From: Candidatus Bathyarchaeota archaeon
Lineage (GTDB): Archaea; Thermoproteota; Bathyarchaeia; TCS64
Reading direction: 5' to 3'
Assembly: GCA_026014815.1 (NCBI GenBank)
Contig: JAOZHP010000151.1
Span: 1-64,000 of the forward strand
Length of the DNA stretch: 64,000 bases
Shown: positions 8,178 through 20,702 of the stretch, one piece after another
How positions within the stretch are numbered: position 1 is the first letter of the stretch
Layout of the letters: each line of letters opens with the position of its first letter
Position numbers and translations under genes: made by a program
The notes under the pieces: model-generated
What the model saw: the letters and a program-made list of their open reading frames with translations, nothing else
Told to the model about the DNA's origin: nothing
Databases searched by the model: none

Positions 8178-8933
8178 TTACAGGTTTTCCTCCAGTTTTT
8201 TGGCGATCTGTTTCCACAGTTCATCGTCTGCCATTCCCCTGTCCTTGAACCCGTGCTCCTTCCTCCATGCCCTGTGGGTTAATCCTGCCCCCGACGTCAT
8301 ATGCCTGGCTAGGGAATCGATCGACGGGAACATACCTTTGCAGCCCTCTACTTTGCACCTGACGGTAAGCTCCCGCGCCCTCCAACTCGCGTAGGACCTC
8401 CCCAGCCGGTATGCCTCCTTCAGCTTCTCCCTGGAGCCTGATACGTGACCTCCGTCAGAGCAGTACTTAACCACGTCCAGCCTCATCCCGGCCCACCCGG
8501 TTATCGACCTGAACATCCTGACTGCCAGCTCCACCCCATCCGGGTCCTCGACGAGGTGGGTCAAAATGAGGACCAGCGCCTTCCCAGAGAGGTTGTTCAG
8601 TCCGCCTCCGGCCAGCAGCCCCTCCAGTCGGTCCAGAAATACTTTCATCTGTCCTGCGATGTGCCACCAGTAGATCGGCGTCGCGAACACGATCAGGTCC
8701 GCAGTCCTGAGCATGGGGTAGACCCCCGTCATGTCATCCTTTATGACGCAGCCGGGCTCCTTCATCTCCAGGCACTTCCAGCACCCGATGCAGGGCCTCA
8801 CGTCCATGTCTCTCAGGAAGAGCTCCGTGATCTCGGCTTTTCCGCTCTCCTTCAGTCCTTCAATGAAGCTCTTCGCTAGGGTCACGGAGCTCCCGTCCCT
8901 CCTCGGGCTTGCCTCAACGACCACCGCTCTCAT
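8178..8933 (-). CDS. Iron-sulfur flavoprotein (flavodoxin fold) with C-terminal zinc-finger-like motif
   Basis: 251 residues from the ATG at 8933; a TTG four codons earlier is less likely. The N-terminus is an FMN-binding flavodoxin-like fold (VVVEASPRRDGSS phosphate loop, FATPIYWW). Cysteines 48, 51, 54 and 62 form a C-x2-C-x2-C-x7-C cluster as in archaeal iron-sulfur flavoproteins, which carry FMN and a 4Fe-4S cluster and transfer electrons from ferredoxin. After the flavin domain, residues 193-220 form C-x4-C-x12-H-x8-H, which looks like a C2H2 zinc finger and is not part of the usual family. Codons are much more GC-rich than in neighbours. It is the second gene of a likely operon with the small gene upstream. 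Confidence 0.8.
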   Translation of the reverse strand: MRAVVVEASPRRDGSSVTLAKSFIEGLKESGKAEITELFLRDMDVRPCIGCWKCLEMKEPGCVIKDDMTGVYPMLRTADLIVFATPIYWWHIAGQMKVFLDRLEGLLAGGGLNNLSGKALVLILTHLVEDPDGVELAVRMFRSITGWAGMRLDVVKYCSDGGHVSGSREKLKEAYRLGRSYASWRARELTVRCKVEGCKGMFPSIDSLARHMTSGAGLTHRAWRKEHGFKDRGMADDELWKQIAKKLEENL

Positions 8934-8969
8934 GCTCAAAACCAACTCTTCTGTTCAACCCATCCACGA

Positions 8970-9191
8970 TCAATAGACATACGGAGTCAGCCTCTTCGTC
9001 CTCTTCATGTACTCCTCTTTCTCCAAGCCGAACTCCTCCAGCAGAATGCCTGCCACCGGCGAGTTGCTCAGTTTCTGGAGAATCAAGAAATCGTATACGG
9101 GTGCCATGAAGCCAAAATTCATGAGCGTCAGTAAGGGCACTGAAGCCAAATCCTTCCTCGGGTCCAGCTTCCTCATACCGCCTACGCTCAT
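8970..9191 (-). CDS. Small hypothetical protein upstream of the flavoprotein
   Basis: 73 residues, unrecognised, soluble, with a hydrophobic centre (LMNFGFMAPVYDFLIL) and a charged end (EEFGLEKEEYMKRTKR). It is GC-rich like the flavoprotein gene 36 bases downstream, and a GGGCTTATATCCGG TATA-like box near 9222-9235 precedes it, so the two probably form one transcript. ATG at 9191 or 9176 could start it. The promoter and matched composition are the main support. Confidence 0.5.
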   Translation of the reverse strand: MSVGGMRKLDPRKDLASVPLLTLMNFGFMAPVYDFLILQKLSNSPVAGILLEEFGLEKEEYMKRTKRLTPYVY

Positions 9192-9441
9192 TTACTGACC
9201 CAACCATCCAGCTTCCCGAGCCGGATATAAGCCCTTTTCCGGTTAGTTTATGGTAAACTAGCATCGGTTTTAGAGCCCTCAACGCCGAGCATGTGAATGA
9301 TCACCTTCAACCACGGGACGGTGAATTCCACCATGTCAGGGATATTCACGAAAAACACGTTGACGGTGAAGCAAGGCGGCGATAGAGTAGTCATCAACGT
9401 TGTTAATAGGTATCCGTCTAGGTTTTTCCATCGGAGGCTGG

Positions 9442-10422
9442 TCAAGATAATATCAGTGACAACGCTGGAACGACCACCAGCAGTAAAATAGTTGTTAAGA
9501 ACCAAGCCGCATTAGCGAGATCGACATCCAAGTCGTAGAGAGTTGGAGGAACCATAGCGGTGAACGCTACAGGCATGGAGGCCAAGATAACTGATACCTT
9601 CAATGGTAGTCCACCATCCACTGATCCTAACCCAATCAATGAGCCTAGAAGATATACGCTGCCCGGAACCATGATGAACTTTATCAACGCGATGCTTCCC
9701 GCCTCACGGAGATAGCCCCTCATCTTACCGAACCTCATAGCCATCCCAATAGATGACAACAGTAGTACGGTGCCGAGTGGAATCAGGATGCTGTTTAATG
9801 TAGAATAGAACCCGGGGCGCTCAACACCCATGGCGTTAAGCAGAAGCCCTACTATCATACTAGCCATCGCCACGACTATGAATCTGTCGGAAACTATGTT
9901 CAGTAATCGTTTCTTCGCGTTTTCATGCTCAGTGACGGAGTCGCTCATGGATTTCGCGTAAGGGAACCCTACACCATAGTAGATGAGGGGCTCGAAGAGC
10001 ATGTAGAAAGGCATCAACGCAACCGCTTGTTCCCCGAGTAACATGAAAGTCACGAGGCCGCCGATACTCCCGATGTTGGTGAAGCTCCCACAGGTAACAT
10101 AGACACCGGTCTGTTTTCTGTTGAGCCTCAAGGCTTTCGCACCCACATACGCGAGTACTCCACCCAGAATTAGCGCGAAGACTCCCAGAAAGGGAAGTGA
10201 GAAGATTCGAATATCGCTGAGCTCTAGAGCCCAGATAGCCCCACCGAACGCCACCGGGTTCACGTAAAGAAGGGAGGTGGCTTGCAGCTTTTTCCTGAGG
10301 CTGCTTATCTCATCCTCGGTCCTCTGTCTTCCATCTGTGTAATAGTTCCTGTAATAATATCCGGCGAGGAGCCCGAACGCTATCAAGCCGAGGGAGAAGA
10401 GAATATTCCCGATATCCGCCAT
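9442..10422 (-). CDS. AEC-family (auxin efflux carrier type) permease
   Basis: 326 residues with about ten predicted membrane helices in the five-plus-five arrangement of the AEC/BART superfamily, ending in a hydrophobic helix LTTILLLVVVPALSLILS. Bacterial members move malate, malonate and other organic anions. The first helix is followed by a basic YYRNYYTDGRQR loop. It is divergent from a PLP enzyme gene, with about 100 bases between starts. The transported compound may relate to the PLP enzyme and cyclase next door, which is inference from position only. Confidence 0.8.
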   Translation of the reverse strand: MADIGNILFSLGLIAFGLLAGYYYRNYYTDGRQRTEDEISSLRKKLQATSLLYVNPVAFGGAIWALELSDIRIFSLPFLGVFALILGGVLAYVGAKALRLNRKQTGVYVTCGSFTNIGSIGGLVTFMLLGEQAVALMPFYMLFEPLIYYGVGFPYAKSMSDSVTEHENAKKRLLNIVSDRFIVVAMASMIVGLLLNAMGVERPGFYSTLNSILIPLGTVLLLSSIGMAMRFGKMRGYLREAGSIALIKFIMVPGSVYLLGSLIGLGSVDGGLPLKVSVILASMPVAFTAMVPPTLYDLDVDLANAAWFLTTILLLVVVPALSLILS

Positions 10423-10523
10423 AACGCTATGAATACTTCATACCGTATTTAACTCCACGCGAGGTAACACGTTCAATCATTGGCTGTTTTTGAAACGTTA
10501 AATCCTGTTGCAGCTACAATTAC

Positions 10524-11606
10524 TTGAGATATTTGAAGATCGAACCATTCAGGCTGGAAAGGTGGCTGCTTGAGCAGGCTGAGATTGACCTCGGTGGAGG
10601 AGGAGTCACAAAGCTTCAGCTCAAAGACATCCTACCTGACTTTGATCTCTCGATGGTGATGAAGTATGGTAGGACAGACGGCTCCGACGAGTTGAAGAGC
10701 CTCGTGGCGGAATGGTACAGCGTCGAGCCGAGGAACATACTCATCACGTCAGGAACCAGCGAGGCCAACCTGATACTGAACCTGACTCTACTGGAAGCAG
10801 GTGACCACTATATCACCGAGAACCCGAAGTTTGAGCAGACCACAAGGTTCGCTGAGATGCTGGGATGCAAGGTAAACGAGTTTAACTTGATGGAAAATAA
10901 AGCTTGGACCCCGGATATAGATGAATTGAAAGAGGCTGTAACAGGAAAAACAAAGATGATCTTCTTGGACAACCCAAATAACCCCTCGGGGGCGGTGCTA
11001 AGCAAAGCCGAATTGAAGGCAATTATCGATGTAGCTGAAGACTCAGGGGCTTATCTTCACTGTGACAATGCTCTACGCGGCTCAGAGTTATCAGGTAAAC
11101 CGGGGGCAACACCCTATCCAGAGTACGAGAAGGGTGTGACGACGGGAAGCATCTCAAAGCTTGGGGCTACAAGCCCGCGGATCGGATGGATCATCGGGAA
11201 CGAGAAGCTGATTAAACGCTGCTGGGAGATGAAAGACTACACGACTCTAGGCCACAGCGGCATAGGAGAGTACATTGCCGTGGAGCTTCTCAAGCAGCGT
11301 GACAGATTGATCAAGAGAAATCTGGAGATAAGCAAGCGAAACATCAATGACCTTGACAACTGGATCAAGATGAGTGCAGGGACATACTGGAGGCCCCCTG
11401 ACGCAGGGTTCACAGGTTTCCCCGGGTACACAGCGGAAATCTCCTCCGAAAAGCTATGCAGAGGCTTGTTGAAGGAGAAAAGCCTCCTGCTGAGCCCCGG
11501 AAGCTACTTCGGGGTCGAAGGACACCTGAGAATCAACACGGGGAGCACCAGTGACGCCCTCTCAGAGGGCTTGGAAAGATTAGGCGAATACCTCGCCACC
11601 CTGTAG
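10524..11606 (+). CDS. PLP-dependent aminotransferase, class I/II
   Basis: 360 residues from a TTG start (no ATG occurs before a conserved region). The motifs are TSGTSEANLIL (PLP phosphate site), LDNPNNPSG (about residue 152), HCDNALRGSE (Asp for the pyridine nitrogen, about 180) and the PLP lysine in SISKLGATSPRIGW (about residue 212). It is shorter than most class I aminotransferases and resembles a small archaeal subgroup of unknown substrate. The cyclase gene starts 42 bases downstream on the same strand, so the two are probably cotranscribed and could act in one degradation route, for example of an aromatic amino acid. Confidence 0.8.
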   Translation: MRYLKIEPFRLERWLLEQAEIDLGGGGVTKLQLKDILPDFDLSMVMKYGRTDGSDELKSLVAEWYSVEPRNILITSGTSEANLILNLTLLEAGDHYITENPKFEQTTRFAEMLGCKVNEFNLMENKAWTPDIDELKEAVTGKTKMIFLDNPNNPSGAVLSKAELKAIIDVAEDSGAYLHCDNALRGSELSGKPGATPYPEYEKGVTTGSISKLGATSPRIGWIIGNEKLIKRCWEMKDYTTLGHSGIGEYIAVELLKQRDRLIKRNLEISKRNINDLDNWIKMSAGTYWRPPDAGFTGFPGYTAEISSEKLCRGLLKEKSLLLSPGSYFGVEGHLRINTGSTSDALSEGLERLGEYLATL

Positions 11607-11647
11607 GCTGCGGTAAACCTTATTCCGGTAACTGTCAAGCCTATACT

Positions 11648-12358
11648 ATGACCTCTTTCTCTTCCCTCATCAAGGATTACAGAGTCGTGGACCTGAGCCA
11701 TACCTTCGAGGAGTCCATGCCGAGACCCCAGGTTCCTTATGGTCACATCCCTTGGAAGTCATACGAGAAGGGTGACGCGTTCAACACCTACATGTTTCTG
11801 GTCTTTGAGCACGCAGGGACCCACGTTGATGCCCCTATTCACCTAGGTGGAGTCGAGGGTCACGCAATCGATGAGATTCCGCTTGAAAGCTGGATGGGAG
11901 ACCTCTGCGTACTGGATATGACTCATAAACAGGAGCGCGAGTTCGTCACTATCGACGAAGTCAAGGCATGGGAGAAGACCCATGGCGAGATCAATGAGGA
12001 TGAGATGGTTCTATTCAACTTCGGCTGGGAAAGCAGGTGGACTACTGATTACGGCGTCGAGAACCAGATATACCTCAAAGACAACCCCGGGTTATCCGAG
12101 GAAGCAGCCCGCTACCTCGTCTCCAAGAAGATCAAGCTGGTGGGAGGAGACACACCCACCATCGACAGCGACGCCGACCCAGAGGAACATGCCCACAGAG
12201 TTCTTCTACCTAGCGGAGTTCTCATAATTGAGAACGTATCCAATCTGGACAAGCTACCACCTAGAGGCGCATACCTGATGGCCCTACCCCTCAAGATAAA
12301 GGACGGCACAGGGTGCCCAGTGAGAGCAGTCGCCTTCATTCCAAAGGATAATCCCTAG
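11648..12358 (+). CDS. Cyclase-family metal hydrolase (kynurenine formamidase-like)
   Basis: 236 residues. It contains the family metal motif in HAGTHVDAPIHLGG (about residues 54-67) and a second conserved block GGDTPTIDS (about 175). Family members hydrolyse formylkynurenine, isatin or cyclic amides, using a metal pair bound by the HxGTHxDxPxH motif. It directly follows an aminotransferase gene, which fits amino-acid catabolism, but no tryptophan dioxygenase is nearby, so calling it kynurenine formamidase would go too far. The ATG start has no strong ribosome site. Confidence 0.85.
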   Translation: MTSFSSLIKDYRVVDLSHTFEESMPRPQVPYGHIPWKSYEKGDAFNTYMFLVFEHAGTHVDAPIHLGGVEGHAIDEIPLESWMGDLCVLDMTHKQEREFVTIDEVKAWEKTHGEINEDEMVLFNFGWESRWTTDYGVENQIYLKDNPGLSEEAARYLVSKKIKLVGGDTPTIDSDADPEEHAHRVLLPSGVLIIENVSNLDKLPPRGAYLMALPLKIKDGTGCPVRAVAFIPKDNP

Positions 12359-12398: not shown

Positions 12399-12935
12399 TT
12401 ATTCCCATGGGTTAACGTGCAAGTATAACTCGAATGCCATTAACTCGAAATTCAGTTCTGCTGGTCCCTTGATTCCTTCGAAGGTCTCTGTTCCTTCAAC
12501 GATGCGTAACCTGCCAGCCCACATTTCAGTTGCTCCGTCCCAGTTGTTACCGATTGTGTATGTTATAGTTCCCGGTTTCTCAGAAATCGTGCTCGTGTAA
12601 ATACCATCTCCATGCAGTGATTCAACGCCGTTTGTTCTTCGGACACCGACGACGTGCTGTATGGCGGTCCCCAGAATATTTGCATCAAGATTGGATAGGT
12701 CAAGTGGTGCAGATAGCCAATAAAACTTGAGTGTTTGGTCAACTTTATAGAAACCATTTGGCATCGGTTCGCTGGAGTCATCGATTATAAATGTCTCACC
12801 CCAAAAGAAAGCCGGAACAGTGTATACCAGTACTGGGTCTTGGTTTTTTTGGCCTAATACACTAATTGAAGGTAGAAAAAGGCTTAGTGATAAGATTACG
12901 ACTAGTAAGATGCCCATTCGTCTTTGATACTTCAT
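12399..12935 (-). CDS. Secreted hypothetical protein
   Basis: 178 residues from the ATG at 12935, chosen because an AAAGGAGATG ribosome site sits just upstream. Residues 1-30 form a signal peptide (basic MKYQRRMG, hydrophobic core ILLVVILSLSLFLPSISVLG). The mature part is rich in beta-type sequence and aromatic residues (FFWGETFIID, ITYTIGNNWDGATEMWAG), suggesting an extracellular beta-barrel or sandwich such as an allene-oxide-cyclase-like fold. I do not recognise the family. A small cytoplasmic gene lies 47 bases upstream on the same strand. Confidence 0.6.
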   Translation of the reverse strand: MKYQRRMGILLVVILSLSLFLPSISVLGQKNQDPVLVYTVPAFFWGETFIIDDSSEPMPNGFYKVDQTLKFYWLSAPLDLSNLDANILGTAIQHVVGVRRTNGVESLHGDGIYTSTISEKPGTITYTIGNNWDGATEMWAGRLRIVEGTETFEGIKGPAELNFELMAFELYLHVNPWE

Positions 12936-12982
12936 TTTTTCATCTCCTTTCTTGGTACTTTTATAGCTCCTCACCTCGGAGC

Positions 12983-13213
12983 TCAGGTTACATTCTCGCT
13001 TTTGAAGATACGTTCAAGTTCCTCTTTGGTTACGTCGATCCTCAGAGTTCCATGTGTTCCTTTGATTTCCAGCACCTTGTCCTCGACCATGTAGACCTCT
13101 TCGAGTTCTCCGAATGTGCCTTCAAAGAGAACACGATTATGTGCCTCGTTTGAGATCGAGATATTCTTCACGTATTGTTTCGAGTTTATCTCTGCAGTGA
13201 ATCCACGATTCAC
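12983..13213 (-). CDS. Small hypothetical protein
   Basis: 76 residues from a GTG start preceded by a strong ribosome site (GCGGAGGAGATAGAC-GTG), which decides the start. The sequence is a beta-rich EINSKQYVKNISI, RVLFEGTFGELEEVYMVEDKVLEIKG pattern and ends in a helix, with no membrane segment. The function is unknown. It is first in a two-gene transcript with the secreted protein gene and divergent from the beta-helix regulator, so it may be a target of that regulator. Confidence 0.55.
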   Translation of the reverse strand: MNRGFTAEINSKQYVKNISISNEAHNRVLFEGTFGELEEVYMVEDKVLEIKGTHGTLRIDVTKEELERIFKSENVT

Positions 13214-13290
13214 GTCTATCTCCTCCGCTTTTGAATGCGCCCTAATGTTAACCAGCTAAATGCGCTAGAAATAATCTCTTTATGCATGAC

Positions 13291-13304
13291 CTTTTTGTAA
13301 AAAG
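13291..13304. promoter_or_regulatory. Palindrome CTTTTT-gt-AAAAAG between divergent genes
   Basis: A perfect 6+2+6 dyad 33 bases before the regulator's ATG at 13337 and about 80 bases from the divergent GTG. Its position matches a TATA/operator region for autoregulation by the winged-helix protein encoded next to it. Being AT-only in its arms, it could also be a chance feature. Confidence 0.35.
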
Positions 13305-13336
13305 ATTGATATTAACGTCGAAACATCAATTTATCC

Positions 13337-15307
13337 ATGTCTCGAACAGAACGATTCTATGATCTTATGTTCGAGGTCTCAAACGAGTATCGTCACCAAA
13401 TTATGTTGATGCTTAAAGAGCAGGCGATGCGAGTCACAGCTCTCTCCAATGAACTTGATCTCACCACACCAGAAGTAAGCAGACATATCTCTCGATTATG
13501 TGAGATAGAGTTGGCGGTCAAAGATGTCGAGGGATTTTTTCACCTCACCCCATTTGGGACAATGGTCCTGACAATGTTACAAGAATTCGAGTTCACTTCC
13601 AAGCACTCAGCTTATTTTTCTACTCATCTCAACGCAGGACTACCAGCAGAATTTACAAAAAGGATTGGAGATCTCTCAGAGAGTGGATTTTCAGATAACA
13701 TTCTGGACTTTATTCGGCAGATTGAACATGTAATTAAAGACTCCAAAGAATATGTTTGGTTACTATGCGACCAGTTTCCACTGAATCATTTATCATTAAT
13801 CATCGAAGCCATCGAGCGTGGTGTCCAGTTCAGAATTATAGAACCACGAGATAGGATACTCAGCCCTGACATTGAAGCCATTGCTTCTGAGGAAAATCTA
13901 GAGCTTAGCCTTACGAAACTAAACCGTATTATTGAACAGAGAATGCTAGATGAGATCAACGTATTCATGTATTTATCTGAGAAAAGCTGTGTTTCAGCTT
14001 TTCCAACACTGAGAGGTGAGAACGAGTATAAAGGATTCATATCGAAAGATGAAACATCGCTAAGATGGTTCAGAGAAGTTTTCCTGCATTATTGGGAAGA
14101 GGCTGAACCAAGAACACCAACTCCCTCACCTGTTCAAGTGAAACGTGGACAAATCTCTGAAATTACGGGCTCTACAAATAGTATAGTGGTCGTTGGCCGC
14201 GATAGATCTGAATATGATGCTCAGGCCATCCAAGACGCCTTAGATAACTATGAAGAGGTAATCCTGAAAGGCAGATTCAACCTTGGAACCTCAACGATTT
14301 ACATAAACAGAAGCGTAGTACTCCGAGGTGAAGGCAGAAAAGACGATATCCCAGATACGAAAATCTACAAAAAAGGCTGGACATTTCCGTTTATAATCGA
14401 AGATTTTCTTTTAGTCGTCCGAGGAGATGGCATAGACGTTTTAATAGAGAACATCCACATTGAGGATTTCAATGGAACATGCATCCGAAACCAGCAAGGC
14501 CATAGTGTAACAATCAGAAAAAATCGCTTAACCCTAAGATCAGGGTTAGGCAGAGGCTTGAGTTTCGGAAACTGGGGAGACCATGTAGTTGGAATACAAT
14601 CAGGAGGAGAATCCATGTTCCAAGGCAGTTTCCCAGGAGGCGTCTTGATTGAGGATAACTTCCTAGACTTTGCGATATCGTATGAGCGAGGTGGATTCAT
14701 ATCAAATAAAGGGCTTGAGAACGACCCAAGCTATAGACCTGATCTGCAGAAACACGAAAACTCAATATGTATCGGAATTTATGCAAGCCGAAATCTGGGA
14801 AAGGTCATCATTAGAAATAATGTTGTCCGAAACATGACCTCGAGAGGAATACTTGTAAATGATAACTGGGGTTCATCGGATATTACAATAGAAAATAATT
14901 CAATTATTTCTGAGGTCTTTGGGGTATATCCCTACAACAACCCCATGTCCGGCGTGGGCATCTTGCTACAGAGCGCTTGGTCTGAGCCCAGATCACGGGG
15001 TCGCGTGGAAGTCAACGGAAACAAGATCGTCTGTGACAAGGTGAACTACTGCGGTATCGCTGTCTATGGTCCTGCTATGTATCAAAAGGGAGCAGGTAAG
15101 CTTGAAGAGTGCATCATAAAAAACAACGAAATAGAACTTGGTAACGGCTCAATCGGGGCTCTAGTGAGGAGGAGCGACCACACCGAGATCATCGACAATA
15201 AAATATCAGGCAAAGCGTATTACGGTCTCCAGATCCAAGGCAGCCCTGATCGCCAAGAAATAGACTTGGGCGCAAAATACAACATTTTCGAAGACAATGA
15301 TATGTAA
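13337..15307 (+). CDS. Winged-helix regulator fused to right-handed beta-helix domain
   Basis: 656 residues up to an in-frame TAA. Residues 1-90 are an ArsR-like winged helix (TALSNELDLTTPEVSRHISRL, then a wing). Residues about 120-260 resemble the FilR1/DUF1724 middle domain found in archaeal regulators (WLLCDQFP, IERGVQFRIIEPRDR, the final WFREVFLHYW helix). A proline linker (RTPTPSP, about 263) leads to about 360 residues of pectate-lyase-like parallel beta-helix with repeating IRNNVVRNMTSRGI and IIKNNEIELGNG turns. There is no signal peptide, so the beta-helix is probably intracellular. It could be a sugar- or polymer-responsive regulator. The last 63 codons lie beyond the TAA in the same frame. 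Confidence 0.8.
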   Translation: MSRTERFYDLMFEVSNEYRHQIMLMLKEQAMRVTALSNELDLTTPEVSRHISRLCEIELAVKDVEGFFHLTPFGTMVLTMLQEFEFTSKHSAYFSTHLNAGLPAEFTKRIGDLSESGFSDNILDFIRQIEHVIKDSKEYVWLLCDQFPLNHLSLIIEAIERGVQFRIIEPRDRILSPDIEAIASEENLELSLTKLNRIIEQRMLDEINVFMYLSEKSCVSAFPTLRGENEYKGFISKDETSLRWFREVFLHYWEEAEPRTPTPSPVQVKRGQISEITGSTNSIVVVGRDRSEYDAQAIQDALDNYEEVILKGRFNLGTSTIYINRSVVLRGEGRKDDIPDTKIYKKGWTFPFIIEDFLLVVRGDGIDVLIENIHIEDFNGTCIRNQQGHSVTIRKNRLTLRSGLGRGLSFGNWGDHVVGIQSGGESMFQGSFPGGVLIEDNFLDFAISYERGGFISNKGLENDPSYRPDLQKHENSICIGIYASRNLGKVIIRNNVVRNMTSRGILVNDNWGSSDITIENNSIISEVFGVYPYNNPMSGVGILLQSAWSEPRSRGRVEVNGNKIVCDKVNYCGIAVYGPAMYQKGAGKLEECIIKNNEIELGNGSIGALVRRSDHTEIIDNKISGKAYYGLQIQGSPDRQEIDLGAKYNIFEDNDM

Positions 15308-15499
15308 GGCTTGGTGATAAAGGAACCAGATGAGTATAGCGACAGTCACGTTGATGGACGCATTTTCACAGGTTCTGACGACAAGTCCACCACAGCATAT
15401 GTATGGCTAAATAATCATACAAAAGGTAACGCAATAAAAGTAAGACCCAATGAATCAGTTATCGACGAAGGAATAGAAAATAAGATCATACAAAGCTGA
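15308..15499 (+). pseudogene. In-frame continuation of the beta-helix regulator after TAA
   Basis: The reading frame goes on from codon GGC at 15308 with no shift to a TGA at 15497-15499. The 63 residues (GLVIKEPDEYSD, then VDGRIFTGSDDKSTTAYVWLN) keep the composition and strand pattern of the preceding domain and look like its C-terminal cap. A single-base change such as GAA or CAA to TAA would explain the break. Restart at the TTG at 15311 is possible but lacks a ribosome site. Confidence 0.6.
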
Positions 15500-15569: not shown

Positions 15570-16841
15570 TTAGATGTCACCGGTTTCATCAATCTGCACA
15601 TCGTTGAATGCTCTTTCGGGTTCACGTATCCAAATGGCAAATATAAGGCTCCCCAGAACACCTAGAACGAAACTTACTTGGAATGGAAGCTGAGGTGACA
15701 AGTGTTCGTAGAGGTATCCCCCAACTATCGGGGCTGGGGTAGTTAGGAAGCCGGTGAGTGTGCCCATCAGACCTATGATGCTTCCACGAGACTCAACCGG
15801 CGCGACCTCCGTGACGAGAGCCTGCCAGACGGGTCCCGCAGCAGACCCCATGACGTTACCGCCCAGTCCCTCCCCCACTCCTCCTACGAGTCTCGTGAGG
15901 GCCACCCCCTTGAACCCCCCTGATAGGGTGTATCCTAGGCTACCCGATGACACCGCCAGCTGTGAGAGGATGATGATTCGTTTCCTTCCATATCGATCGG
16001 AGAGGAAGCCGCTTGGGATCATGAATAGCGCCCCGGCCAGGTTTGAGATTATGCTGACATAACTCCACTGCATCATGCTCAAACCAACGACCTCGACACA
16101 GTAGACAACCACGAATGACCAGAAAACCTGGAAGCTGAAACTACTCAGGACCGCGACAACCACGAGCTTCCATATCTCGGACGGTATATTCCTGATCTGA
16201 GCAATGGATGGGAGATACTTTGACTCATTGACGGGGCTCTCTACGCCCAGCTCTACTGTCTCCTCGATGAACCTCCATCTTATGAGGACCACAGGGATGG
16301 TTAGAAGGAGTGATATTATCAAGCCGATATGTGTTCCCGGAACTAGGCCTATCGAGTCCATGATGTATCCGCCGATAGGGTACGAGACTACGATTGAGAG
16401 GTACCAGATCATCGTGTAAGCGCCGAAGCCAGTCGCCCGGTTCTCCTCAGGTAAGCTATCAGCTATCAACGCCATTAGAGCTGGAGTCGCTAATGATGAT
16501 AGAGCCATAGCTAAGATTCCTGGGATAAGCATCATCCAGTGAGTCGAGACACGGAAGATCAAGGGAGGTAAGAATCCAAACAATGAAGCCGCCATGATAA
16601 CCCTTTTTCTGCCTATCCTATCTGAGAGCACACCGCCTGGAAGTTGCAGCAGCAATGTTGACAATAACTGAAGAGTAGTGAGAGCACCAAGGATGCTCTT
16701 TGTGCCATCAAGCTCAAGGACGTATAACCCCCAGAAAGGCCGCCACAAGAACATAGCGAACATGGACAGACTCTGGGTCACGGTGACAGCCATGAGGTTC
16801 CTGTTCGAGAGAACCGTTTTCACTGACAACCTAAAATTCAT
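15570..16841 (-). CDS. Major facilitator superfamily transporter
   Basis: 423 residues from the ATG at 16841, with twelve predicted membrane helices. The MFS loop 2-3 motif GGVLSDRIGRKR appears at about residue 60 and its repeat GFLSDRYGRKR at about residue 275, and the first loop carries PFWGLYVLELDGT. It looks like a drug/H+ antiporter or sugar-type carrier of the DHA or unknown group; the substrate cannot be read from sequence. A 45-residue loop between helices 6 and 7 is charged (FIEETVELGVESPVNESK). It is the last gene before the UbiD homologue on the same strand, 170 bases apart, and need not be cotranscribed. Confidence 0.85.
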   Translation of the reverse strand: MNFRLSVKTVLSNRNLMAVTVTQSLSMFAMFLWRPFWGLYVLELDGTKSILGALTTLQLLSTLLLQLPGGVLSDRIGRKRVIMAASLFGFLPPLIFRVSTHWMMLIPGILAMALSSLATPALMALIADSLPEENRATGFGAYTMIWYLSIVVSYPIGGYIMDSIGLVPGTHIGLIISLLLTIPVVLIRWRFIEETVELGVESPVNESKYLPSIAQIRNIPSEIWKLVVVAVLSSFSFQVFWSFVVVYCVEVVGLSMMQWSYVSIISNLAGALFMIPSGFLSDRYGRKRIIILSQLAVSSGSLGYTLSGGFKGVALTRLVGGVGEGLGGNVMGSAAGPVWQALVTEVAPVESRGSIIGLMGTLTGFLTTPAPIVGGYLYEHLSPQLPFQVSFVLGVLGSLIFAIWIREPERAFNDVQIDETGDI

Positions 16842-17012
16842 CAATTCCCGTGCCAGCTACCTTAAACCACTATCTACAGGTTAATATTTAGAATCTCCTA
16901 GACTTGAGTACTATAAGTCTTCACCAGTTAAGTCATAATTAGCTATTCTTTCCAAGTTGTTCTACTTTGAACATCGCAGGCAGATCTCAATAATGATAAT
17001 GGGATAATTGGA

Positions 17013-18674
17013 TCAGGTCGCTCTCTCGAAGGGAAGCGTAGCCCTCAGAGCAGTCCAAGAGTCTCCCTTCCTAGCATCAAGTACCAGTCTTCCATCCCTA
17101 ATGACAGCGTTCTCAGCTGGCTGGAACCTAGTGGCTATCGCCCATAGCACCTGCCTTCCATCATCGAGATCGATATCCTCATCGACGAGAACTATCATCC
17201 TGCTCTCAGAGAGAGCGGCCTCGCTAAACACCCAGTCAAGCTCACCTGATTCCCGTTTAGGGTTTATTACACATAGCGCCGTGCATCCATGATACGGGAA
17301 CGAGACTCTGCGGATAAATTTGATGGCGTTCACAGATGCCAAGTCAACCTTATTCTCTGAGACTCTCCTAGACCCAGTCGCGTCTATAATCATCTTAGAT
17401 GATATCCCAGCGTTCACCGAGGATGGGTCCAAGAGATGATGGTACGAGGTACCAATCACATCCACCCCAGACCCTATCTTAAAGTCACATCTTTCCGCGA
17501 TGGTTACCAAAACACCCGCTGAATCCGAAAGATCAGTGCCATTCGGTAGAACCGCCACCAACTTTGCGTAGTGATCCAGTCCCAATAACAGTGTCCCTAT
17601 CTGCTTCGCGAGTCCAGTTGAACCCATCGCCTGCTCTTTCAGCGACATGAAACAAGCGAAATGCGTAGCCCATACCGGCCAATTGATGTCCTCCAAGGCA
17701 GGCATATGAATGAAATCCATCATTCCCTTCGAAATCCTGGCTTGTTTAGGCAGACCGCTTAGGAGAAGGTGTTCAGCAGAGTTACTTGGGGCTACAGCCA
17801 TGAACATGGCGTCTTTCCGCTGGAGTATCCCCGTGACTTTGAATAGGTTTCTCGTCGACCTGCCGCTGATATACCCTGTGTACTCGGTGAAAGGCCCTTC
17901 GTCCTCCTCTTCCAGCATGACTTTTCCTTCTAGAACGATCTCTGAGTCTGCGGGCACCGGAAGGTCAACTGTTTCACATTTCACGAGCTCAACTGGTTCT
18001 CCTGTCAACGCGCCGGACTTGTGGTATTCGTCAGTAATCTTCGCTGCTGCAGCAAGGTACAGTGACGGGTGTGCCCCGATTATCACAGCAGCCTCCATAG
18101 GTTCACCGGCTTCCTTGGCGTTCTCCAAGTACCGCCACATGTGGCCCCGTGAATGGAAGCTGACGCCGAACCGGTCCTTTCCCTGGAGGTGCATCCTCAC
18201 ATAGGACAGGTTTATCTCCTCCTGTTTCTTTGGGTTCCTAGCGAGGAACAACCCAGCTGTGATGTATCGTCCCCCGTCCTGCTCGTAGAACCTCGGGATG
18301 GGCAAAGAGTACAGGTCGACATCGTTGCCCAGTGATTTCTTCTCCTTAACCGGGCCAGTATTCACCATGACCGGCGGGATGTCTCTCCCGAATAACCTGT
18401 TCCATTCATCGTAGAACCCAAGCCTGCTGCGTACCCTCGGGGTCTCCCCGATACCTAGGCTGATCCTGTCTACGTGCCCAAACAGGTTCACAAGTACCGG
18501 CATAGAGTAGTCTTTAACGTCCTCGAACAGTACCGCAGGGTTAGTTTTTCTCTTCTCCATCTCAGTGACCACAGAAGTGATATCGTACTTCCAGTCGATC
18601 CGGTCGCTCACCGTCACAAATTGATCCGGCACTTTCTCTTCAAGCAGCTTCAGGTATGTCCGCAGGCCTCGCAT
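17013..18674 (-). CDS. UbiD-family decarboxylase (prenyl-FMN type)
   Basis: 553 residues covering the whole UbiD fold. The EGPFTEYTGY block (about residues 255-265) holds two glutamates five apart that match the E-R-E catalytic triad of prenyl-FMN decarboxylases. The C-terminal half has the usual IDATG (Lys or Arg following), a flavin-site ANAIKFIRRVSFPYHGC region and a terminal LDARKGDSW helix. Family reactions include ubiquinone-precursor, aromatic and alpha,beta-unsaturated acid decarboxylation; in archaea a member decarboxylates trans-anhydromevalonate phosphate in the modified mevalonate pathway. It is divergent from a corrinoid/methyltransferase operon, which favours an aromatic-acid role, whereas the aconitase-X pair 40 kb away fits the mevalonate role. 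The prenyl-FMN synthase UbiX is not in the window. Confidence 0.85.
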   Translation of the reverse strand: MRGLRTYLKLLEEKVPDQFVTVSDRIDWKYDITSVVTEMEKRKTNPAVLFEDVKDYSMPVLVNLFGHVDRISLGIGETPRVRSRLGFYDEWNRLFGRDIPPVMVNTGPVKEKKSLGNDVDLYSLPIPRFYEQDGGRYITAGLFLARNPKKQEEINLSYVRMHLQGKDRFGVSFHSRGHMWRYLENAKEAGEPMEAAVIIGAHPSLYLAAAAKITDEYHKSGALTGEPVELVKCETVDLPVPADSEIVLEGKVMLEEEDEGPFTEYTGYISGRSTRNLFKVTGILQRKDAMFMAVAPSNSAEHLLLSGLPKQARISKGMMDFIHMPALEDINWPVWATHFACFMSLKEQAMGSTGLAKQIGTLLLGLDHYAKLVAVLPNGTDLSDSAGVLVTIAERCDFKIGSGVDVIGTSYHHLLDPSSVNAGISSKMIIDATGSRRVSENKVDLASVNAIKFIRRVSFPYHGCTALCVINPKRESGELDWVFSEAALSESRMIVLVDEDIDLDDGRQVLWAIATRFQPAENAVIRDGRLVLDARKGDSWTALRATLPFERAT

Positions 18675-18802
18675 CGGGTTCAGTCTCCACCAGTCTCTTT
18701 GATGGAACTCGGCTTAAGTTTATGGAAACGCATCTTGCCCGTTGGGTTCGGTTAATAATAATTCCAGAGGATGAAAAAAGAACCCAAGCGTATGATAGCC
18801 TT

Positions 18803-18817
18803 GCTTTTTTATATGCA
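18803..18817 (+). promoter_or_regulatory. TATA box of the corrinoid/methyltransferase operon
   Basis: The sequence CTTTTTTATATGC centres about 25 bases before the ATG at 18835, exactly where an archaeal TATA box should lie for a transcript starting at or next to the start codon. This implies a leaderless message for the first gene. Confidence 0.55.
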
Positions 18818-18834
18818 GTGTTCAACTACAATTC

Positions 18835-19476
18835 ATGTCTTCTCAAGAAAAAATCATGAACGCGATCGTCGAACTGGATGAGCCGACTGCTCTTGAGCTT
18901 GCGGCACAGATGGTCGAATCTGGTACAGCCCCCGTCGATATCCTGGAGCAATGCCGAAATGGTATGTCCATCGTCGGCGAGAAATTCGAGAGCGGTGACT
19001 TTTTCCTCTCGGAGATGATCATGGCGGCCGAGATCTTCAACCAAGTCATGGACCTGATCAGGCCCCAGCTGAGAAAGACAACCAGCGAGTCAAAAGGCAA
19101 GATAGTCTTCGGGACGGTCGAGGGTGACGTTCACGACATCGGTAAGAACATCATAATCGCGCTACTCGAAGCAGAGGGATTCGAAGTAATAGATCTTGGC
19201 GTAGATGTTCCTCCAGCGATGATCGTGGAGGCCATCAAGGAACATGAACCAGACATCGTCGGCATGAGCAGCCTCCTCACCGTAGCCATTGAGTCCACAA
19301 AGAAGACAGTTGACGCCATCGTCGAAGCAGGGCTTCGGGAAAAGGTCAAGATAATCATCGGCGGTGGTAGGATAGACGCCTACGCCGCTGAATACATCAA
19401 GCCGGACGCGTCATCGGACAACGCTGCTCACGGCGTGAGGCTTTGTCTGGAGTTCATGGGAGGTGACAAGGTTTGA
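18835..19476 (+). CDS. Corrinoid (B12-binding) methyltransferase protein
   Basis: 213 residues of MtaC/MtbC/MtmC type. The N-terminal four-helix cap domain covers about residues 1-88. The cobalamin domain follows with GTVEGDVHDIGKN (about 97-109; the His is the lower cobalt ligand), DLGVDVPPAMIV, GMSSLLT (about 142) and IGGG (about 180). Such proteins carry a methyl group on Co(I) between a substrate-specific and an acceptor methyltransferase. It overlaps the start of the UroD-type gene, so the two are coupled. No corrinoid activating protein (RamA type) is in the window. The methyl source is not revealed by this subunit. Confidence 0.9.
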   Translation: MSSQEKIMNAIVELDEPTALELAAQMVESGTAPVDILEQCRNGMSIVGEKFESGDFFLSEMIMAAEIFNQVMDLIRPQLRKTTSESKGKIVFGTVEGDVHDIGKNIIIALLEAEGFEVIDLGVDVPPAMIVEAIKEHEPDIVGMSSLLTVAIESTKKTVDAIVEAGLREKVKIIIGGGRIDAYAAEYIKPDASSDNAAHGVRLCLEFMGGDKV

Positions 19477-20702
19477 GCACTGAACACGAGGAGCTGTACA
19501 GTCAGCGAAAGGAGAGACTGGACAGAGCATCGGCTCTGAAAGAACCTGACAGGGTTCCCGTCACGGGAGGATTCGGGTTTTTCTCAGCTAAATATGCCGG
19601 GATCTCGCACCATGAGTTTCTCTTCGACTATGAGAAAGCCAGCAATGCCGTGATCAAGACAGCCGTGGATTTCAGCTATGACACAGCGGGCAGTGTAAGT
19701 AGGTTAGGTGCTCTACCCTTTACACTGGCTTTCCTCCGAGACTATGACGGACTAGCCCCTGTGTGGGTAAACGGCCCCATCCATGATATCCTCGGCGTCA
19801 GATACGCGAGGTTTCCCGGGAGGGAGCTAGCGGAAGACGCGCCGTTCCAGTTCATCGGCGAGGAGTACATGAAGGTCGAGGAATATGACGAACTAATAGA
19901 AGACCCCAGAAGATACCTTGTCGAGAAGCTGCTGCCCAGATCATGCAGAAGCCTAGAGAACCCAGGGTCGTCGAAGGCTATGGCGTCGTTATTCAAATGG
20001 GGTGTCGAGAGCAGGAAAAGCCTTGAGGCTTCTCGGAGGCTCGGGGCTGAGCTAAAACGTCTTGGTTTCCCCAGCTACTCAAGTGGGTTCTCCTATGCTC
20101 CACTGGACTTCATTGGCGACTATCTAAGAGATGTCAAGAACGTCCTTCTCGACACCTTCAGGGTACCCGAGAAGATTAAACAAGCCGCCGTCGCCGTTGG
20201 GGCCTTAATCATGGAGATGAACAAGATCGCTGCAAAGACAGCCCCTGAAGGTACAAGAGCGTTCATACCCCTGCACCTCAACGAGTATTTTTCACCCAAG
20301 CAGTACAACGAGTTCTATTGGCCTACGTTGAAACAAGTGGCACTGGACCTTATCGACTTGGGCTTCATACCCCTGATATTCTACGAGGGGTACCACGATG
20401 CACATCTGGAGACGATACTGGAGCTCCCCAAGGGAAAAACCGTCTCCAAGTTCGAGAAAACAGACCTGAAGAAGGCGAAGGAGATCATAGGAGACCACTC
20501 CTGCATCATCGGAGGGCCTCCGTCCTCCCTCTTCATCGGTGGAACCCCAGCTAAAATGGAGGAGTACGTAAAGAACCTCATGGAGGACGTGAAACAGGGA
20601 GGAGGCTTCATAATGAGCCCCTCAGTCTCTATACCCGCAAGCGCAAAACCAGAGAACGTAAAGGCGTTGATGGACGCCGTAAAAAAATATGGGGTCTACT
20701 AG
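19473..20702 (+). CDS. UroD-family methyltransferase homologue, corrinoid partner
   Basis: 409 residues, starting at a TTG that overlaps the corrinoid gene's stop (TTGA); a full GGAGGTGA ribosome site lies 8 bases upstream and settles the start. The fold is that of uroporphyrinogen decarboxylase/MtaA/MtbA methyltransferases. The usual zinc site (His-x-Cys plus a distant Cys) is not visible: the expected places read YHDAHLETI and MSPSVSIPA, with no cysteine. So it probably binds its substrate differently from CoM-methylases, as some O-demethylase components of this family may. With a corrinoid partner and a UbiD enzyme alongside, removal of methyl groups from methoxylated aromatic acids is a reasonable guess, not shown. 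Confidence 0.8.
   Translation: MSTEHEELYSQRKERLDRASALKEPDRVPVTGGFGFFSAKYAGISHHEFLFDYEKASNAVIKTAVDFSYDTAGSVSRLGALPFTLAFLRDYDGLAPVWVNGPIHDILGVRYARFPGRELAEDAPFQFIGEEYMKVEEYDELIEDPRRYLVEKLLPRSCRSLENPGSSKAMASLFKWGVESRKSLEASRRLGAELKRLGFPSYSSGFSYAPLDFIGDYLRDVKNVLLDTFRVPEKIKQAAVAVGALIMEMNKIAAKTAPEGTRAFIPLHLNEYFSPKQYNEFYWPTLKQVALDLIDLGFIPLIFYEGYHDAHLETILELPKGKTVSKFEKTDLKKAKEIIGDHSCIIGGPPSSLFIGGTPAKMEEYVKNLMEDVKQGGGFIMSPSVSIPASAKPENVKALMDAVKKYGVY

Follow-up and report, generated by a model that had tools for sequence, protein, structure and literature searches.

A conserved fusion of a winged-helix regulator to a right-handed beta-helix in Bathyarchaeia: a candidate one-component sensor beside a divergent partner gene

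Introduction

The beta-helix is a fold familiar chiefly from adhesins and exported carbohydrate enzymes. We analysed a 64,000-nucleotide stretch of DNA (the window), lying within a 187-kb contig of a Candidatus Bathyarchaeota metagenome-assembled genome (MAG; 3.09 Mb, 159 contigs), in which one open reading frame appears to join a DNA-binding domain to such a fold. Is this fusion real, and what might a beta-helix do on an intracellular regulator? Bathyarchaeia are abundant sediment archaea with little experimental genetics. A conserved fusion of this kind would both show that the fold is usable as an intracellular sensor and offer a way to test how the class regulates its envelope.

The fusion gene and its in-frame stop codon

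The fusion gene occupies positions 13337–15307 on the forward strand (656 aa) and terminates at an in-frame TAA (15305–15307). The initial annotation had placed its end at 15499, which reads through this stop. Past the TAA, the same frame remains open until a TGA at 15497–15499 (63 codons plus the TGA), and this severed segment (15308–15499, forward strand) is recognisable as the C-terminal tail of the beta-helix: the residues encoded by its 63 codons show 63% identity to the end of the protein from the nearest relative (locus L035 in genome G020; 719 aa), against 66% for the part before the TAA, and the beta-helix profile match runs on across the stop in the window copy. Comparison with relatives, which carry an amino acid at this site, identifies the TAA as either a premature stop or a base error in the MAG. 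Because most full-length relatives keep about 64 additional C-terminal residues, the window copy is either truncated or affected by an assembly error, and because the identity is similar on both sides and the profile match continues, the stop is either recent or an error. Lacking its last coils through the TAA, the window copy may be impaired. The loss of conserved residues would also be expected if this copy were a decaying pseudogene or an assembly error, functionless in its own organism, but we consider that highly improbable, since the comparable identities mean that any decay is recent and the remainder of the frame is intact. For searches and fold prediction the TAA was read through, in the window protein alone.

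Conservation of the junction

The junction between the two halves is crossed in nine separately assembled Bathyarchaeia genomes, the window's included, and both halves are complete in six. Full-length homologues (675–731 aa), their domains in the same order and on a single contig, occur in five other genomes, with identities to the window protein of 67% (G020), 62% (G007), 49% (G024), 44% (G015) and 43% (G010). Three further genomes (G072, G003 and G008) hold partial copies across the junction that are interrupted by gaps or contig ends; the G008 copy stops at a contig end just inside the beta-helix, and the G072 copy looks truncated because of a stretch of N in its assembly and does not truly end there. 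The eight fusion copies with a long enough DNA-binding half (the G003 copy was left out) form one group in the tree (support 93/91), adjacent to a beta-helix-free relative from G022, and none of the shuffles with which this grouping was compared was as clustered. Nine separate assemblies and one group in the tree together mean that the fusion is not an assembly artefact, an origin that we rule out given the identical fusion in independently assembled genomes. The initial annotation was right to treat the two halves as one protein: relatives have them in the same order on single contigs, and no clearly detached member of this beta-helix subfamily was seen. A virus origin was likewise rejected, with no relative found among viral contigs.

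The two halves differ in distribution. The beta-helix subfamily is present in 8 of 257 genomes of the class, every one a fusion carrier (the ninth carrier is G008, whose copy stops just inside the domain), and searches outside the fusion loci returned none at E 1e-10 in these 257 genomes or at 1e-5 in a sample of 398 genomes of the phylum, in which the window's own genome was the only one with the subfamily. One beta-helix piece, on contig C43 of G015, adjoins scaffold gaps. The regulator half is present in 43 of the 257 class genomes, mostly as proteins of 240–300 residues, and many of these relatives have no beta-helix.

Two copies have peculiarities of their own. The G072 copy (locus L040; G072:C1:496000-515900, 8923–10461) comes from another family of the class, and its position within the group beside the G024 copy (support 100/100) suggests horizontal transfer or a problem of taxonomy, naming or binning. 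The G015 copy (locus L038; 8836–10860, reverse strand, about 675 aa) has a short, unrelated tail at its end, possibly the result of a frameshift near the C-terminus, in which case it would join the window copy in having a damaged end.

The DNA-binding half

Residues ~1–85 (13337–13591, forward strand) form an ArsR-type winged helix-turn-helix. The window protein matches PF01022 over the Pfam cut-off (E 3e-5) and HVO_A0261_N at 6e-7, yet under the cut-off of that model; HMM matches of this region include the HlyU, NolR and ArsR structures, and the AlphaFold model shows the helices and the wing. An ArsR-like winged helix had been proposed from the start, and PF01022 together with the model bears this out. 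Residues ~86–258 (13592–14110, forward strand) form a TrmBL2/FilR1-like (PLD-like) middle domain. Over this domain the family profile hits TrmBL2, whose structure is known (5box/5bpd), at 4e-7, and Foldseek with the front half of the predicted structure returns TrmBL2 (5bpd) at 1e-5. The FilR1-like character that had been assigned to it is thus recovered in part: PF08350 (FilR1_middle) is matched by two of the seven homologues (best 1e-5), but the window protein alone stays below the cut-off (E = 0.24). A proline-rich linker follows at residues ~259–281 (14111–14179, forward strand), poorly conserved and of low pLDDT; its motif PRTPTPSPV (residues ~258–266) agrees with the linker originally described. 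Neither a signal peptide nor a transmembrane segment was found in the window protein or in the seven homologues by hydropathy, judged with a script and not a dedicated predictor, which upholds the earlier view that the protein is not exported.

This half is comparable to two known kinds of archaeal regulator. FilR1 of Methanosaeta harundinacea has a C-terminal receiver domain phosphorylated by FilI and binds its own promoter (PMC3991700). Like FilR1 (PF08350 family), the fusion places a C-terminal module, in the position of signal input, after an ArsR-related DNA-binding half; unlike FilR1, it has the beta-helix in place of the receiver, for which Pfam returned no match in the window protein or its homologues, and no partner kinase could be recognised. 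TrmB has a C-terminal sugar-binding part and TrmBL2 has none (PMC4158304). The fusion resembles these Thermococcales proteins in its middle domain, for which profile and fold searches both give TrmBL2, but differs from TrmB in that its DNA-binding domain matches ArsR-type models, and neither the TrmB DNA-binding domain (PF01978) nor the TrmB sugar-binding domain (PF11495) was found in the window protein by Pfam at E up to 1. Given these comparisons, the simplest reading of the beta-helix would be a swapped-in sensor.

We therefore favour, with a probability of about one half, a TrmB/FilR1-like one-component regulator that uses the beta-helix as its C-terminal sensor and controls itself and the divergent operon. 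Its ArsR-type winged helix and TrmBL2-like middle domain would form a DNA-binding half that is probably dimeric, to which the beta-helix was added, apparently in a single event during the evolution of Bathyarchaeia, at the place where TrmB carries its sugar-binding domain and FilR1 its receiver. The most likely ligand of the beta-helix would be a carbohydrate or glycan precursor inside the cell, whose binding would alter the hold of the winged helix on the promoter region shared with the divergent genes. The regulator would thereby control its own gene together with the divergent operon, made up of the genes for a 76-aa partner and an exported or surface protein. Four elements of this scheme are inferred: that the protein binds DNA, that the divergent operon is what it regulates, that the beta-helix senses a ligand, and that this ligand is a carbohydrate.

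The beta-helix domain

The right-handed beta-helix spans residues 282–656 (14180–15304, forward strand). The window protein matches PF13229 at 1.2e-9 (38.5 bits against a cut-off of 25.9), as do all seven homologues. An AlphaFold prediction with seven sequences (mean pLDDT 72.8) gives a beta-helix from residue 282 onward, the winged helix and most coils being well predicted and the linker and some loops being of low confidence. The domain named in the initial annotation was thus recovered by both Pfam and structure prediction; the position of the TAA leaves about 375 of its residues, or about 439 if the lost tail is included. A weak match to NosD (PF05048, 1e-5) is over the cut-off and arises from the beta-helix repeats; NosD as the identity of the protein was rejected (10.7 bits for the NCBIfam NosD model against 300), and no nos genes were recognised alongside.

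With the back half of the predicted structure, Foldseek returns the A-module of AlgE6 as the best match (9e-6), then RbmB, the fucoidan lyase FdlA and others, with further matches to AlgE4, GH87 and an endopolygalacturonase. Identities are 10–14% and TM-scores, taken on the target, do not exceed about 0.5, and such matches indicate the fold and not the substrate; a PDB sequence search with the beta-helix profile returned no match. Mannuronan C5-epimerases and polysaccharide lyases are enzymes that act outside the cell or in the periplasm. The fusion shares with the A-modules of the former (AlgE6, AlgE4) and with the lyases RbmB and FdlA a right-handed parallel beta-helix, but differs from them in its DNA-binding half, in having no export signal and in lacking the epimerase DPH motif.

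Because the nearest folds are enzymes, and because six acidic or histidine residues (D415, E439, D444, D469, H473 and E474) are invariant within one stretch, the beta-helix could be an active intracellular enzyme of the epimerase, lyase or glycosidase kind, acting on a cytoplasmic glycan precursor and making the protein a trigger enzyme with catalytic as well as regulatory roles. We consider this unlikely, as none of the catalytic motifs searched for as simple patterns (DPH of alginate epimerases; NTD, DD and GHG of polygalacturonases) is conserved in the family, and no carbohydrate-pathway gene was recognised as a conserved neighbour. For the favoured sensor, a glycan is our first guess at the ligand, since the grooves of beta-helices commonly bind polysaccharides and the neighbouring genes encode surface proteins.

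The domain is no less conserved than the winged helix (0.67 vs. 0.64 in mean column identity of the family alignment; 78 invariant columns), which indicates that it is under selection, and invariant residues are also found in its long loops (e.g., YKKGWxFPF and yrPDLxxHE). Such conservation, in columns and loops alike, would be needless in a passive spacer or oligomerisation domain, which is the role left to the beta-helix if sensing falls to the TrmBL2-like middle domain or to nothing at all, perhaps in a chromatin-like protein as TrmBL2 is. That TrmBL2 is a chromatin protein, and that relatives across the class combine the same DNA-binding half and divergent partner with no beta-helix, would suit such a spacer, but the predicted helix is single-chain and right-handed and not triple-stranded as in MYRF, and we give this role a slightly smaller chance even than that of an enzyme. 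In the animal transcription factor MYRF, the DNA-binding domain is followed by a beta-helical segment (PMC3742443, PMC8326128); unlike in the fusion, this helix is of the tailspike type and trimerises the factor, and it comes with a membrane anchor and self-cleavage. We claim no sequence relationship between the two.

The divergent partner and the shared promoter region

A conserved 76-aa open reading frame with a GTG start (12983–13213, reverse strand) is transcribed away from the fusion, and the 123 bp between the two (13214–13336) are expected to hold the promoters for both genes. A promoter stretch at 13213–13337 had been pointed out earlier, and it does lie between divergent genes, but the left gene had been missed. 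Among the divergent regions, inverted repeats were no better than in shuffles, and the best shared 8-mer occurs in six of seven regions compared with five in shuffles, so that no common operator stands out.

The partner belongs to an unnamed family. Its predicted structure has six beta-strands and a C-terminal helix (mean pLDDT 90); no significant match to this fold was found in the PDB, with PH/EVH1-like folds appearing only at E ~0.5 or worse. YbaB and Fur_reg_FbpA were rejected as its identity, their matches being below cut-off. Every fusion locus whose upstream DNA could be read (seven) has the divergent partner, and the partner's family (A5/A6) occurs in 39 of the 257 class genomes and is sparse outside the class. 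Two-thirds of the family's matches (42 of 63) are divergent to a regulator of the fusion's family within 1.5 kb, and five more are close by; 16 of the 63 have no regulator match nearby. The window's genome has partners of this family also beside regulator paralogues on contigs C16 and C47. As the partner also occurs with regulators that have no beta-helix, its association is with the regulator half, and the class-wide tie to the regulator makes this family a second testable lead.

The beta-helix might instead be a protein-binding scaffold that docks a partner (a membrane component, say, or the 76-aa protein) and thereby ties the regulator to the state of the envelope, in the manner proposed for Toastrack. 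Toastrack, of the phage-shock and Lia systems, is a right-handed beta-helix with a proposed intracellular signalling role, and assembly roles have been proposed for intracellular beta-helices (PMC11237479). Exported or surface proteins encoded by neighbour genes, together with the invariant residues in the long loops, accord with docking. We regard a scaffold as doubtful, though the strongest of the alternatives, because the 76-aa partner is not specific to the domain and no gene of a phage-shock system or of membrane-anchored signalling could be recognised alongside. Toastrack, unlike the fusion, comprises DUF4097/2154/2807 and is usually C-terminal to membrane segments, and DUF4097, DUF2154 and DUF2807 are absent among the Pfam matches at E up to 1. 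The phrase "sensor or scaffold" in the initial annotation is accordingly plausible as it stands. Its further claim of a new design should be toned down. We found no report of such a regulator/beta-helix fusion in the open-access literature searched. C-terminal swaps, intracellular beta-helices and MYRF are already known, so the parts and the logic are familiar and it is the particular combination that appears new. Only tentatively would we call this the first prokaryotic one-component regulator to read a glycan through a cytoplasmic beta-helix, in a two-gene unit whose divergent 76-aa partner possibly has a PH-like fold and which controls surface proteins of Bathyarchaeia.

Predicted exported proteins and the wider neighbourhood

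Downstream of the partner and in the same direction lies a gene for a predicted secreted protein of 178 aa (12399–12935, reverse strand; the open reading frame opens at 12974), which has no Pfam match. Predicted exported proteins occupy this place, 3′ of the partner and in its direction, at six fusion loci (the window, L035, L037, L038, L039 and L040), operon membership being judged on gene order only. The window, L035 and L039 share one secreted family of about 170–178 aa; L037 has an FG-GAP/CARDB protein, L038 a Laminin_G_3 (lectin-like)/carboxypeptidase-regulatory protein, and L040 a signal-bearing, gap-broken open reading frame. This variation between loci tells against the sensor reading, as does the absence of any predicted exported protein within 1.5 kb at L087 (G008). 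The nearest beta-helix-free relative (L044, G022) has a predicted exported protein 3′ of its partner, named by eye as alpha/beta-hydrolase-like. Elsewhere in the class, other families often have a flavodoxin-like protein (by eye) or a membrane protein encoded at that place.

Beyond these genes, positions 15573–20699 of the window hold genes for an MFS transporter, a UbiD-family decarboxylase and a URO-D-family protein, and a 213-aa open reading frame that is corrinoid-protein-like by eye. On the other side, positions 10524–12358 hold an aminotransferase gene and a cyclase-family gene, which have relatives at the L037 locus.
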